A stretch of DNA of 39,724 nt. Source: Cyanobacteria bacterium QS_8_64_29. Lineage in GTDB: Bacteria; Cyanobacteriota; Cyanobacteriia; Cyanobacteriales; Rubidibacteraceae. A program made the translations under genes and the position numbers. The stretch spans positions 1 to 39,724 of the forward strand of contig PXQH01000062.1 in assembly GCA_003022125.1 (NCBI GenBank), read 5' to 3'. The notes under the pieces are model-generated. The model ran no database searches. It was given only the letters and a program-made list of their open reading frames with translations, and was not told where the DNA came from. Of this stretch, positions 19,860-24,522 are shown one piece after another (the stretch's first letter is position 1; every line of letters begins with the position of its first letter).

Positions 19860-19931
19860 AGCTGGTGACAGGATTCGAACCTGCGACCGACGGTTTACAA
19901 AACCGTCGCTCTACCGCTGAGCTACACCAGC
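19860..19931 (-). tRNA. trnT: tRNA-Thr (anticodon TGT)
   Basis: A 72-nt cloverleaf on the minus strand: acceptor GCTGGTG/CACCAGC, D-arm GCTCAGCGGTAGAGC, anticodon stem ACGGT/ACCGT with loop TTTGTAA, T-arm with GGTTCGAATCC, discriminator T. CCA is not encoded. The 3' end touches the cysQ TGA. Confidence 0.97.
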
Positions 19932-20132: not shown

Positions 20133-21635
20133 GTGGCCCACTCGACCGCGCGCGAGGCCTACGAGGCGATCGTGCCGCAATTTGTCGAGCGCTGGGAGCA
20201 ACGAACCGGGGAGGCCCTAAGGGTGTACCCAAGCTATGGTCCCTCAGGGGGCCAAGCGCGCGCTGTGCTAGAAGGGCTCGAAGCGGACGTTGTGGCCCTG
20301 GCCCTGGGCGCGGACGTTGCGCCACTGCAAGCGGCAGGACTGGTTGCGCCCGGGTGGCGTCAGGCGCTACCCAATCGCGCGGTGCCGCACTACTCGGTGG
20401 TCGCGCTTTCGACCCGAGCGGGCAACCCCCAAGGCATCCGCGACTGGCCAGACTTGACCGATGCTGGCGTCTCGGTAGTTGCGCCCAATCCCAAAACCTC
20501 GGGCGGGGCACGCTGGACCTTTTTGGCCCTTTGGGGCGCTGCCACCCAGCGGGATGGCATGCCCGGAGCCTCAGCCTACGTGCGCCACGTATATGGCAAT
20601 GCCCCTATCCTGCCACGCAGCACCCGCGAAGCCAGCACGGTGTTTTGGCAGCAACAGCAAGGCGATGTCTTGCTCACCTACGAAAGCGTTGCCCGCTTTG
20701 CGCAGCGCAGCGGCCTAGAGCTGAGCTACACCGTGCCCGAGCCCAACCTGCGCGCCGACAACCCGGTGGCCGTTGTCGATCACCACGTCGAGCAGCACGG
20801 CAACCGCGCGGTTGCGGAAGCATTTGCCCGCTACTTGTTCTCGCCCCAGTGGCAAGGCAGTCGCCATCGCGATCGCGTGATTTATCTGACGCTGCTGCTA
20901 CTGGTGCCGGCAGCCAATGTCGCCTTTCAGGCCTTTCGCAGCGGCCTGGGGGCTTTTGCGGCCAACTTGGGCGATCCCGCCCTTGTGAGCGCCATTCGCG
21001 TCACGCTGCTGCTGGCGGTGCTAGTGGTCCCGCTCAATACGGCATTTGGGCTGTGCGCCGCCTGGGTGATCGCGCGCCACCAGTTTCCCGGCCGGACGTT
21101 GCTGGTCAGCCTGCTGGATTTGCCCTTTGCCGTGTCCTCGGTGGTGGCGGGGCTAGCGATCGCGCTGCTCTACGGTCGCGACGGTTGGTTCGGGCCGCTG
21201 CTCGAGGCCGCTGGCATTCCCATGCTGTTTGCGCTGCCGGGAATGGCGCTGGCCACGGCGTTCGAAACGCTGCCGTTTGTGGCGCGCGAGCTCATTCCCG
21301 TACTAGAGGAGACCGGCACCGAGCAAGAGGAAGCGGCCCGCACTTTGGGCGCGAGCGAGTGGCAAACCTTTTGGCGCGTGACGCTTCCCAACCTTCGCTG
21401 GGCGCTGCTGTACGGCATCATCCTGACCAACGCGCGCGCCATGGGGGTATTCGGCTCGGTGGCGGTCATCTCGGGCAATATCATTGGCAAGACCCAAACC
21501 CTGACCCTGTTTATCGATGACACCTACAAGCAGTACCAGACGCAGGCTGCCTTTGCGGCAGCCATGCTGTTGGCTGGCCTGGCCCTGGTGACGCTAGCGC
21601 TCAAAGCGCGCTTGGAAGGTGCCTCGGCCGAGTGA
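20133..21635 (+). CDS. Fused remnant of sulfate-binding protein (Sbp) and sulfate permease CysW
   Basis: One 500-codon frame. Residues 1 to about 247 are a sulfate-binding protein without its export signal (VAHSTAREAYEAIVPQF, PSYGPSGGQARAV, APNPKTSGGARWTF, VFWQQQQGDVLLTYES) that stops near ARYLFSPQWQ. Residues from about 255 are CysW (ALVSAIRVTLLLAVLVVPLNTAFGL-type start, WVIARHQFPGRTLL, LPFAVSSVVAGLAIALLYG, then the EAA loop TLGASEWQTFWRVTLPNLRW). Missing are the Sbp C-terminus, all of CysT and the CysW N-terminus, and no cysA follows. The GTG start is only formal. It is most likely a pseudogene made by an internal deletion; an assembly collapse is the alternative. Confidence 0.85.
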   Translation: MAHSTAREAYEAIVPQFVERWEQRTGEALRVYPSYGPSGGQARAVLEGLEADVVALALGADVAPLQAAGLVAPGWRQALPNRAVPHYSVVALSTRAGNPQGIRDWPDLTDAGVSVVAPNPKTSGGARWTFLALWGAATQRDGMPGASAYVRHVYGNAPILPRSTREASTVFWQQQQGDVLLTYESVARFAQRSGLELSYTVPEPNLRADNPVAVVDHHVEQHGNRAVAEAFARYLFSPQWQGSRHRDRVIYLTLLLLVPAANVAFQAFRSGLGAFAANLGDPALVSAIRVTLLLAVLVVPLNTAFGLCAAWVIARHQFPGRTLLVSLLDLPFAVSSVVAGLAIALLYGRDGWFGPLLEAAGIPMLFALPGMALATAFETLPFVARELIPVLEETGTEQEEAARTLGASEWQTFWRVTLPNLRWALLYGIILTNARAMGVFGSVAVISGNIIGKTQTLTLFIDDTYKQYQTQAAFAAAMLLAGLALVTLALKARLEGASAE

Positions 21636-21735: not shown

Positions 21736-22134
21736 ATGAGCCCCTCCTCAGAACGCGATCCCAACGCTGCATCGGCCGAGGCCCCGACATGCGACTCGCC
21801 GCTGGTCGATCTCAACGGGGTCCGCCAAGTTCAGCCCGAGACGCTCTCGGCCCAGCGAGCCCAGCAGATGGCGGAGTTTTTCCGCGTCCTCGCCGATCCC
21901 AGCCGCTTGCGCTTGCTCTCGGCCCTGGCCCAGCGCGAGCTCTGCGTGTGCGATCTGGCCGCGATCGCCAAAATGAGCGAGTCTGCAGTCTCCCATCAGC
22001 TCCGAACCCTGCGCGCCATGCGCCTGGTGAACTACCGCCGGCAGGGGCGCAACGTCTACTATCACCTAGCCGATGCCCACGTCATCGAGCTCTATCGGAC
22101 CGTCGACGAGCACTTGGACGAACTGTGCCCGTAG
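21736..22134 (+). CDS. ArsR/SmtB-family metal-sensing repressor, ZiaR-like
   Basis: A 132-residue winged-helix repressor with two recognisable metal sites. The alpha-5 site has D113-x-H115 and H126-x-x-E129, the exact spacing of the zinc ligands of SmtB. The alpha-3N site has C70-V-C72-D73 in ELCVCDLA, the ZiaR/CadC form (SmtB has CVGD), with an extra N-terminal Cys 19. The recognition helix is [17 protein letters not shown]. Zinc, or a similar soft/borderline metal, is therefore the expected inducer. It lies 60 bp upstream of, and in line with, the multicopper oxidase and ZIP genes, which it probably regulates along with itself. Confidence 0.9.
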
Positions 22135-22194
22135 CAGCAGCGGCCGGTTCAAGCTGCTACTATCCGCCGTACTAGGCTAAATTGTGAACGAAAA

Positions 22195-23295
22195 ATGAAA
22201 GCCCGCCCCGCGGGTTGCCATCGAGGCCATGGCATGCGCAATGCAAGCTTGACGCGGCGAACGCTGCTCGGGGGTGCTTTGCTGGCAGCTGGTGCCGGCT
22301 TGATCGCGCGCCCTAGAGGCGCCCGGGCGCAAGCGTACTCGGACGCCTCGGTCACGCCGGGCGGCCTGGAAACGGTGGGCGATGTGGATCGCCGCTTTAA
22401 CGGCTTTGATGCCCACCAAATCCTGACCGATTGGGATACCGGCACCGTCTCGCGGCAAGCCAACGGCCAGCAGCTGCGCGAGTACGCCATTGAGGCCATC
22501 GAGCGCGAGATCGAGATCGCGCCGGGGGTGCGCTACCCGGCTTGGACCTACAACGGTCGGGTCCCGGGGCCCACGCTGCGCGCCACCGAAGGCGATCGCG
22601 TGCGCATTCGCTTTACCAACCGCGGATCGCACCCGCACACGATGCACTTCCACAGTATCCACGGCGCCAGCATGGACGGCGTTCCCGGTGCCGGGGAGGT
22701 GCCGCCCGGCGAGACCTTCGTCTACGAATTCGAGGCGCAGCCGTTCGGCTGCCACCTCTACCACTGCCACTCCATGCCCTTCAAGCAGCACTTGCACAAG
22801 GGGCTCTACGGCGCGTTCATTGTCGATCCCGACCCCGAGCGGCACCCCCAACAGGCTGAGGCCGCGAACGCGCGCCTGCTCGGCAGCGCTGCCAATGCGC
22901 GCTGGCAGGAGCTCGTCATGGTCATGAACGGGTTCGATACCAACTTCGACGGCGACAACGAGTTCTACGCCGCCAACACCATCCCGCACGCCTACTTCAA
23001 GCGGCCCATCCGCATCGAGCGCGATCAGCCCGTGCGGGTTTATTTGGTCAACGCCACCGAGTTCGATCCCATCAATTCGTTCCACCTCCACGCCAACTTT
23101 TTCGACTACTACGACCACGGCACGACGCTCGAGCCCACGCTCCCCACCGTGGACACGGTCAAGCTGGCGCAGGCCCAGCGCGGCATTCTGGAGTTCTCCT
23201 ATCGCGGCTTCGAGCCCGGCGATTACCCGTTTCACGCCCACCAAACCGAATTTGCCGAATTGGGATGGATGAGCTTGTTTCGCGTCGCCGCCTAA
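22195..23295 (+). CDS. Tat-exported two-domain multicopper oxidase
   Basis: A 366-residue protein with a twin-arginine signal (LTRRTLLGGALLAAGAGLI then ARA), so folded export with copper is expected. Domain 1 has H146-P-H148, H151-F-H153 and H190-C191-H192, giving the single type-1 copper cysteine. Domain 2 has INSFHLHANFF and DYPFHAHQTEFAELGWM with no second Cys. This resembles type-B two-domain laccase-like or nitrite-reductase-like oxidases, which act as homotrimers. The substrate could be Cu(I), Fe(II), Mn(II) or a phenolic compound. ATG 22234 is an alternative start nearer the Tat motif. Its end overlaps the ZIP gene by 31 bp. Confidence 0.88.
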   Translation: MKARPAGCHRGHGMRNASLTRRTLLGGALLAAGAGLIARPRGARAQAYSDASVTPGGLETVGDVDRRFNGFDAHQILTDWDTGTVSRQANGQQLREYAIEAIEREIEIAPGVRYPAWTYNGRVPGPTLRATEGDRVRIRFTNRGSHPHTMHFHSIHGASMDGVPGAGEVPPGETFVYEFEAQPFGCHLYHCHSMPFKQHLHKGLYGAFIVDPDPERHPQQAEAANARLLGSAANARWQELVMVMNGFDTNFDGDNEFYAANTIPHAYFKRPIRIERDQPVRVYLVNATEFDPINSFHLHANFFDYYDHGTTLEPTLPTVDTVKLAQAQRGILEFSYRGFEPGDYPFHAHQTEFAELGWMSLFRVAA

Positions 23296-24437
23296 AGCGC
23301 ACCACCGCCCAACTGGCCCTTCCCGTGGGGCTGCTGGCGCTACTGCTGGGGGCCTTCGTGCTGCTGGATCCGCTCCAACCCGCTGGCGCCCTGCCGCCGC
23401 TCGAGCGGCTGACGGTCGAGCGCACCATTTTGGATGACGCGGGTATCTCGCTGCTGGTGCGCGCTGGCGGTCCCGACCCAGTGGCGATCGCGCAGGTGCA
23501 AGTGGATGAGGCCTATTGGACCTTCGAGCAAAAGCCGGCGGGTGCCATTGCACCGCTCGAGCGCGCGCGCATCAACATCCCCTACCCCTGGACCCGCGGG
23601 GCGGACCACCACGTGCGGCTGGTCTCGCAGACGGGGGCAACCTTTGATCGCGCCATCGAACGGGCACTCCCCACCCCCACCCTCAATCCGGTGACGCTGC
23701 TGCGGCAGGCGCTGGTGGGGCTCTACGTGGGGCTCGTGCCGGTGGGGACGGGCATGCTGTTTTATCCGGCCCTGCGGCAGCTGGGCCGGCGCGGGCTGGA
23801 ATTCGTCCTGGCGCTGACGCTGGGGCTGCTCGCCTACCTGCTGGTCGATACGGCCCGCGAGGGGTTGGCACTGAGCGCGCAGGCCAACTTGGCGCTGAGC
23901 GCTGGCACCTTGCTTTGGATCGCAGCCGGGCTGACGTTTGCGGCATTGCTGGCAGTAGGCCGGCGCGGCGGCGCGCCGCCCCAGGGCAAAGCCCTGGCGC
24001 GCTACTTGGCGCTGGGCATTGGCTGGCACAATCTGGGTGAAGGTTTGGCCATTGGGGCAGCGTTTGCCACCGGCGAGATTGCGCTGGGCTCGTTCCTGGT
24101 GCTGGGGTTTGCCCTGCACAATCTTACCGAGGGCATTGGCATTGCCGCGCCGCTGGCCGAGCTACGACCGAGGCTGGCAACGTTCGCCCGCCTAGCGGCC
24201 CTGGCAGGTGCCCCGGCCATTGCCGGCATCTGGCTGGGAGCTTTTGCCTTCTCGCCGCATTGGGCCGCCCTGTTTTTGGGGGTCGGCGCCGGGGCAATCT
24301 TGCAAGTATTGGTGGAGGTAGGCGCCTACTTGCAGCGACTGTCCCCAACCGCCGGCTTGCTCTCGGCGCGAAGCCTGGCCGGCTCGGCCGCCGGCGCTGC
24401 CATCATGTACGGCACCAGCTTGGCCGTGCAGGTGTAA
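23265..24437 (+). CDS. ZIP-family metal permease with extracytoplasmic N-terminal domain
   Basis: 390 residues. One N-terminal membrane segment (LALPVGLLALLLGAFVLL) is followed by a soluble domain of about 110 residues (LTVERTILDDAGISLLVRAGG to RAIERALPTPT). Then come eight or so hydrophobic segments carrying the ZIP signatures HNLGEGLAIGAAF and LHNLTEGIGIAAP (metal-binding His, Asn, Glu in TM4/TM5). ZIP proteins usually import Zn, Fe or Mn; most bacterial ones lack such an N-terminal domain. The start lies inside the oxidase gene in another frame, implying coupled translation and a joint role in handling one metal. Confidence 0.87.
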   Translation: MDELVSRRRLKRTTAQLALPVGLLALLLGAFVLLDPLQPAGALPPLERLTVERTILDDAGISLLVRAGGPDPVAIAQVQVDEAYWTFEQKPAGAIAPLERARINIPYPWTRGADHHVRLVSQTGATFDRAIERALPTPTLNPVTLLRQALVGLYVGLVPVGTGMLFYPALRQLGRRGLEFVLALTLGLLAYLLVDTAREGLALSAQANLALSAGTLLWIAAGLTFAALLAVGRRGGAPPQGKALARYLALGIGWHNLGEGLAIGAAFATGEIALGSFLVLGFALHNLTEGIGIAAPLAELRPRLATFARLAALAGAPAIAGIWLGAFAFSPHWAALFLGVGAGAILQVLVEVGAYLQRLSPTAGLLSARSLAGSAAGAAIMYGTSLAVQV

Positions 24438-24450
24438 GCTGGCGCAGCAA

Positions 24451-24522
24451 TGGGCGGTACCGGATTCGAACCAGTGACAACCTGCTTGTAAGGCAGGCAC
24501 TCTACCGCTGAGTTAACCGCCC
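24451..24522 (-). tRNA. trnV: tRNA-Val (anticodon TAC)
   Basis: A 72-nt cloverleaf on the minus strand: acceptor GGGCGGT/ACCGCCC, D-arm CTCAGCGGTAGAG, anticodon stem CCTGC/GCAGG with loop CTTACAA, T-arm GGTTCGAATCC, discriminator A. CCA is not encoded. It is convergent with the ZIP gene (13-bp gap). Confidence 0.97.

Follow-up and report, generated by a model that had tools for sequence, protein, structure and literature searches.

Gene organisation of the locus

The window, i.e. the whole stretch of 39,724 nucleotides analysed here from Cyanobacteria bacterium QS_8_64_29 (contig PXQH01000062.1), carries three co-directional genes for a repressor, a multicopper oxidase (MCO) and a permease of the ZIP family. 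The genes for MCO and ZIP are closely conserved as a pair and in most cases overlap at their ends, and many proteobacterial copies of this pair carry an operator box of the MntR or Mur type, so that the regulatory evidence, as read from promoter sequences, points to manganese. An initial annotation of the window had recognised the position and direction of the three genes, the complete alpha-5 and CxC metal sites of the repressor, the export of a two-domain oxidase and the start of the permease inside the oxidase gene, all of which were borne out. The features of the locus are as follows.

21736-22134, + strand: ArsR/SmtB-family repressor, 132 amino acids; alpha-5 site D113, H115, H126, E129; C70-x-C72; C19
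22131-22160, no strand assigned: inverted repeat GTAGCAGC-N14-GCTGCTAC, spanning the repressor stop and the gap between repressor and MCO genes
22195-23295, + strand: two-domain MCO, 366 amino acids; Tat signal; HCH motif with Cys191 in domain 1; second domain without Cys
23265-23295, + strand: overlap of MCO end and ZIP start, 31 bp; ATGA-type 4-bp overlap in many relatives
23265-24437, + strand: predicted ZIP permease, 390 amino acids; extra N-terminal helix, beta-sandwich domain and eight-helix ZIP core
23301-23366, + strand: extra hydrophobic helix of the permease (about residues 13-34), preceded by a positively charged start
23394-23678, + strand: predicted immunoglobulin-like (Ig-like) beta-sandwich (residues 44-138, 95 residues); invariant E52, R66, Q77, D81, W109
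24027-24044, + strand: HNLGEG motif of the ZIP metal site (H255, N256, E259); the three residues invariant in 77/77 relatives
24117-24134, + strand: HNLTEG motif of the ZIP metal site (H285, N286, E289); the three residues invariant in 77/77 relatives

The permease start at position 23265 lies 31 bp within the MCO gene, and the next in-frame start, codon 21, falls in the first hydrophobic helix. The oxidase itself has two cupredoxin domains, which bear the ligands of a T1 and a trinuclear copper site. Across the 80 rows of its alignment, the set of His and Cys residues expected at copper sites is invariant with the exception of H201 (79/80), the assignment of residues to individual coppers being our assumption, and the twin arginine of the export signal is kept at R21 in 78/80 and at R22 in 77/80 rows. 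The best solved relative is 7rab/7rac (E 1.5e-161, with 7rab aligned across residues 36-364), followed by 3gdc (E 4.9e-95); we take these to be the MCOs of Marinithermus hydrothermalis and Arthrobacter FB24, respectively, both of the same oxidase family as the window MCO. On its plasmid, the Arthrobacter FB24 MCO gene is adjoined by a ZIP gene, with a metal-dependent regulator in divergent orientation. For the M. hydrothermalis enzyme, laccase activity and a dodecamer of four trimers are reported (PMC10673308).

Conservation and spread of the MCO-ZIP pair

A genome search with MCO alone recovered at least 573 stretches encoding a relative, and in the best 80 of these, which were analysed further, a ZIP gene lies directly downstream on the same strand in every case (80/80). 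Since these loci were picked by MCO alone, the pairing is beyond chance. The ends of the two genes overlap in 66/80 pairs and the largest gap is 56 bp (79 loci plus the window, with script-chosen starts; locus L005, where the ZIP match changes frame, was left out). A plasmid search with ZIP gave 148 records, and in all 13 plasmid loci that were read MCO is found directly upstream of ZIP. These belong to cyanobacteria, alphaproteobacteria, Deinococcus, Rhodococcus, Arthrobacter, Peribacillus and the haloarchaeon Halobaculum, and the pair as a whole occurs in six bacterial phyla, counting Balneolota (Fodinibius), and in one archaeal group.

This ZIP is borne by 5/386 cyanobacterial genomes, each time beside MCO sequence (5/5). 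Two of these copies are damaged, one broken by a transposase-like open reading frame (ORF) and a frame break, the other internally deleted. At the broken copy (L084, genome G145, about 346-1500), an ORF of 332 amino acids, transposase-like by eye, splits the MCO gene near the HCH motif and the ZIP is frame-broken, while at the deleted one (L085, genome G123) the first half of MCO joins the last part of ZIP. In the ZIP tree, the window stands apart from the other cyanobacteria on a long branch with a weak fork (84/73).

A second, more distant clade of two-domain oxidases (40-46% identity by tblastn) is common in cyanobacteria. The fetched flanks of 26/26 of its loci held no ZIP match (L086-L111, a part of the distant-clade matches; L111 reaches only 288 bp downstream), and the idea that two-domain MCOs generally pair with ZIP was rejected on these grounds.

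A gene for a redox protein directly follows the 3' end of ZIP in 4/13 plasmid loci (L119, L120, L123, L125), Rieske-type in Gloeocapsa, Chroococcidiopsis and Rhodococcus and plastocyanin/azurin in Halobaculum. Its product is a possible electron partner of the oxidase, and any proposed mechanism should account for this gene.

Manganese-type regulation

Clustering of 547 neighbour ORFs identified the MntR-type regulator as the group present in most loci (15/80, of which L053 and L054 stem from one metagenome-assembled genome). MntR-family genes account for 15/150 immediate neighbour ORFs vs 0/397 more distant ones (Fisher p 2e-9, which ignores relatedness) and adjoin the pair in several phyla, nine of them upstream and divergent, two upstream and co-directional (Trueperaceae) and four downstream and co-directional. 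The NCBIfam MntR model was matched by 11/76 nearest upstream ORFs at E up to 1e-10, and the regulator at locus L003 reached 213 bits vs an MntR equivalog cut-off of 153. On plasmids, an mntR or 'metal-dependent' regulator gene is adjacent to the pair in 6/13 loci (including Arthrobacter, Halobaculum and Deinococcus, in the last accompanied by Nramp) and is absent from this position in 7/13.

The palindrome TAGC-N4-GCTA was found in 9/9 divergent intergenic regions, exact in seven and with one mismatch in two. Within 300 bp or less upstream of MCO, exact matches occurred in 23/95 regions (the window counted twice) vs 2/1708 control windows, and one-mismatch matches in 43/95 vs 108/1708. A motif-free scan of 4-N(0-12)-4 palindromes retrieved the same sequence in 18/90 upstream regions vs 5/2508 controls, third by enrichment and most frequent among the 15 top rows, together with a second family, GCAA-N11-TTGC (17/90 vs 13/2508), which is the Fur-type TGCAAAT-N-ATT motif, i.e. 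a Mur-type box. When 94 MCO upstream regions of 250 bp were counted, with the Mur-type box scored at one mismatch or fewer, 22/94 held an exact MntR box, 26/94 a Mur-type box, 47/94 either and one both. The respective controls were 5/2612 and 4/2612 windows and, upstream of the remaining ORFs of the same loci, 0/421 regions for each box. All 47 boxed regions come from a subset of 71 loci. The 23 loci outside this subset are 12 cyanobacterial ones including the window, 3 of Halomonas, 2 of Trueperaceae, Fodinibius and 5 plasmids from other groups. In several cases the box extends into a TATAAT-like (-10-like) element, as expected of repression, and in Stenotrophomonas the box of an MntR target is reported to lie between -10 and -35 (PMC13217887). 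In the MCO-ZIP family, a putative MntR- or Mur-type box is found at the promoter in half of the upstream regions.

Both boxes are known from manganese importers. TAGC-N4-GCTA is located 18 bp before E. coli mntH, with a second exact match there that is intragenic, and rhizobial Mur is described as repressing sitABCD and mntH in a manganese-dependent way, each of the two having a box (PMC5575495). In 15 genomes with both kinds of loci, a Mur-type palindrome (up to 3 mismatches to the 15-base palindrome; some ORF calls are wrong) preceded 6/13 non-His-rich (manganese-type) and 0/14 His-rich (zinc-type) binding-protein genes. For 5 of those 6 genes the MCO of the same genome also carries a Mur-type box, and in Thalassospira the binding-protein gene has an MntR-like site (1 mismatch) instead. 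The MCO-ZIP pairs have their operator boxes in common with E. coli-type MntH/MntR and rhizobial SitABCD/Mur, but the transporters of those systems are from other families and lack an oxidase partner. A Mur-type box also accompanies the copy of the pair in a record named 'Bacterium MnTg02' (L037).

The initial annotation had left the metal as Cu, Fe or Mn, of which the regulatory evidence favours Mn. A copper module, in which the oxidase would convert Cu(I) to Cu(II) and ZIP would take up or handle copper, has a precedent in ammonia-oxidising archaea. There, a two-domain MCO1 gene is directly linked to a zinc/iron permease gene (NVIE_000600/000590), an analogy to Fet3 is drawn and copper uptake is proposed (PMC7785015), contrary to the earlier view that known ZIP proteins act alone. 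The archaeal pair resembles that of the window in this linkage but differs in the metal proposed, and the accessible text mentions neither an extra permease domain nor manganese regulation, the comparison being one of descriptions only. An MCO-ZIP pairing is already in print for archaeal copper and the manganese link appears to be new, as a literature search, mostly at the level of titles and abstracts and with most subscription journals outside its scope, found no paper tying an MCO-ZIP pair to manganese. Besides this analogy, which extends to induction under copper limitation, a role in copper would suit the copper-type genes near several plasmid copies and the plastocyanin/azurin gene 3' of ZIP in Halobaculum. 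However, the regulation most often readable consists of manganese operators and MntR-family genes, and the island neighbours are mixed, including Zn-, Hg- and Co-type annotations. Because of this mixture copper was rejected on neighbour evidence alone; we retain it as a rival explanation, albeit a distinctly unlikely one.

The permease and its added domain

By sequence and fold, the permease is predicted to be a divergent ZIP protein with an eight-helix core and HNxxE motifs in transmembrane helices (TM) 4 and 5. Its Pfam PF02535 score of 28.1 bits is under the gathering cut-off of 35.1, with a match that covers the second half, and 76/77 ZIP relatives match this model at E up to 0.01 (an E threshold, not the gathering score). 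A profile of the 77 relatives finds BbZIP (E 6.6e-4), which is also the top structure in a Foldseek search with the AlphaFold2 model (E down to 5.4e-6). This model, with a mean predicted local distance difference test (pLDDT) score of 90, consists of the extra helix, eight strands (residues 49-131) and eight ZIP helices. The ZIP core and the HNxxEG motifs are common to ZupT/BbZIP zinc transporters, whereas the added helix, the beta-sandwich and the oxidase partner set the window ZIP apart, as does HNLGEG in TM4 where BbZIP has HNLPEG.

The non-ZIP N-terminal domain expected by the initial annotation is present as the modelled beta-sandwich, although with 95 rather than about 110 residues. It is neither absent nor eroded in homologues, with 0 gap rows in 77 and a mean majority-residue frequency of 0.69 vs 0.67 for the ZIP part. 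The five invariant residues listed above form no obvious metal site, also when H115, kept in 75/77 relatives, is included. As the extra helix is preceded by a positively charged start, the beta-sandwich behind it should be extracytoplasmic and face the exported oxidase. Compared alone with solved sequences it gave no match, while the full ZIP profile matches the archaeal pilin 8fk7 (E 0.0015). After the ZIP structures, Foldseek again listed 8fk7 (E 2.7e-3), then FlaG 5tuh of the archaellum (E 0.014, with a TM-score of 0.67 on target), with DsbD and CopC domains weaker still. These likenesses to pilin and FlaG, for an Ig-like sandwich behind a membrane helix, are suggestive only.

Local control and manganese transport in the window genome

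The repressor belongs to the ArsR/SmtB family (Pfam HTH_5, 69.1 bits vs a cut-off of 22) and its closest solved relative is SmtB 1r1t (E 4.2e-32). D113, H115, H126 and E129 align at a constant offset of 9 with SmtB residues 104, 106, 117 and 120, presumably the zinc ligands of SmtB, and the protein also has C70-V-C72 and C19. The inverted repeat at 22131-22160 is a candidate operator and not an MntR box. An MntR box in the window was likewise rejected, with no exact match and with 21 one-mismatch matches in 39.7 kb, none of them near the operon.

The initial annotation had counted the repressor as part of the system and expected the three families to be adjacent, which held for MCO and ZIP in the genome, plasmid and cyanobacterial loci but rarely for the repressor. 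ArsR-like matches were found within about 4 kb of the pair in only 4/80 loci, about 360 bp past ZIP in L005 and farther away in L014, L041 and L073. An ArsR gene directly before MCO is confined to the window, with Leptolyngbya boryana having one separated from MCO by a small ORF. With nearby matches in 4/80 loci and this placement rare, ArsR as a core part was rejected; the repressor is a local controller outside the conserved MCO-ZIP pair.

Its closeness to SmtB would nevertheless fit a zinc/cadmium stress cassette in the window lineage and some cyanobacterial plasmids, in which ZIP and MCO serve resistance under an SmtB-like sensor. In Leptolyngbya and Chroococcidiopsis, ArsR and P-type ATPase genes are found next to the pair or close by, which would fit as well, although the identity of these ArsR proteins to that of the window is only 38%. 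We consider such a cassette quite improbable, given that it would harm a cell to induce a ZIP importer when the metal it carries is in excess and that no ATPase adjoins the window copy.

The window genome, a 69-contig draft, encodes PsbO, which we take to be the manganese-stabilising protein of photosystem II. No Nramp was found in this draft, which has a single ABC-3 permease. The latter shares 44-51% identity with a group of 7 rows, in which a His-rich binding protein is present in both operons inspected, and 21-29% with the rest. A second permease group, taken as the MntABC type, is present in 14/15 other cyanobacterial genomes (G159 giving fragments only); the single operon inspected from this group encodes a non-His-rich binding protein. 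In the window genome (contig C69, locus L138), the ABC-3 permease lies beside its ATPase gene, with no binding-protein gene among the surrounding ORFs listed. On these sequence comparisons, the organism seems to be without the usual manganese importers (Nramp, MntABC-type).

As regards the setting of the operon, genes for tRNA-Thr (19860-19931, - strand) and tRNA-Val (24451-24522, - strand) flank a sulfate gene fusion and the three-gene operon and are possible island borders, with GC content unchanged across them. GC content around the operon gave no sign of recent transfer, and an empty-site comparison in relatives was uninformative, the flanking DUF2227 gene being present in 3/10 genomes. 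The fusion (20133-21635, + strand), which adjoins the repressor gene, joins a sulfate-binding protein in frame to a CysW-type permease. Its binding part leaves its model about 55 positions before the end and the CysW-type part begins at model position 11; it is either a natural fusion or a deletion remnant.

Possible function of the pair

It is quite possible, if somewhat short of probable, that MCO and ZIP are one unit for manganese acquisition, with the oxidase outside and the permease in the membrane. The pair would be repressed at sufficient manganese and switched on in shortage, as for import. The ZIP core would import Mn(II), the beta-sandwich would hold the oxidase near the ZIP mouth, and the oxidase would oxidise Fe(II) and/or Cu(I), leaving Mn(II) as the ion taken by a carrier of broad specificity. 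The clearing of Fe(II)/Cu(I) is preferred over oxidation of the cargo because ZIP carriers of the HNxxE type are known for divalent cations. In the window cyanobacterium, the SmtB-like (Zn/Cd-type) sensor would take over control, perhaps securing manganese when competing metals are in excess, and as neither Nramp nor an MntABC-type permease was found, MCO-ZIP may be a main manganese entry route there.

Alternatively, the oxidase of the same manganese module might turn Mn(II) into Mn(III) that is handed to or kept for the permease in the manner of Fet3/Ftr1, which would suit the tight pairing and the conserved facing domain but not the divalent cations for which HNxxE ZIP proteins are known. 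Fet3 has three domains and is anchored in the membrane, and Ftr1 and ZIP are unrelated. The yeast system likewise combines a copper oxidase with a membrane permease (mentioned in PMC7785015), but differs in that the window permease is predicted to be a ZIP by sequence and fold, not a member of the Ftr1 family, and that the metal here is probably manganese. A hand-over of Mn(III) might also be suggested, by analogy, by the higher intracellular manganese of the Mn-oxidising wild type of Pseudomonas putida GB-1 compared with non-oxidising mutants (PMC3798386). Those oxidases, however, are likened by function only and manganese oxidation by the present oxidase is putative; we regard this variant as unlikely.

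Returning to import of Mn(II), it is conceivable but on balance doubtful that the pair is an undescribed manganese import system, manganese-repressed in many lineages, that replaces MntABC and MntH in a cyanobacterium with PsbO. This wider reading includes the overlapping genes, the pilin/FlaG-like beta-sandwich, a spread that is partly on plasmids and an occurrence in at least six bacterial phyla and in haloarchaea.

A number of observations weigh against a role in manganese. Half of the MCO upstream regions (47/94) hold neither an MntR nor a Mur-type box, the contrast for the MntR box is weaker when one mismatch is allowed (41/94 vs 28/421 and 132/2612), and the Mur-type pattern was first spotted upstream of MCO, which makes its score there partly circular and leaves the sitA-type genes as the independent evidence. 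Exact MntR boxes and Mur-type boxes are both absent from the 12 cyanobacterial upstream regions, of which three have a one-mismatch MntR site. There is no MntR or Mur-type box near the window operon and no DtxR/MntR C-domain in the window genome, and an SmtB-like repressor, released by excess zinc, would be an unusual control for an importer. The window ZIP core is without the glutamate at the TM6 position of BbZIP that we take to be a metal ligand. Many plasmid copies are located in metal-resistance clusters (genes for P-type ATPases, CopZ, SCO and CopD), which would suit copper or zinc, and the linked MCO1 and permease of Nitrososphaera, likened to the pair by description, rose under copper limitation (PMC7785015). 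Finally, we are unsure of the zinc assignment of the ABC system in the window genome, since the adjoining ATPase scores 161.9 bits for zinc AztA vs 162.3 bits for manganese MntA, both far under cut-off, the NCBIfam permease models are all under cut-off and the branch of this permease in the tree is long. The ambiguous ATPase scores led us to lower slightly our expectation of an undescribed import system.

If the pair does serve manganese acquisition, neighbouring genes that now bear the names 'multicopper oxidase domain-containing protein' and either 'metal transporter' or 'zinc transporter ZupT' would have to be reread as a manganese supply. An oxidase-gated bacterial ZIP importer would further be a new way for cells to keep Mn(II) apart from Fe(II), Cu(I) and Zn(II), and the pair raises the concrete, testable question of why bacteria would pay for a copper oxidase to get manganese.

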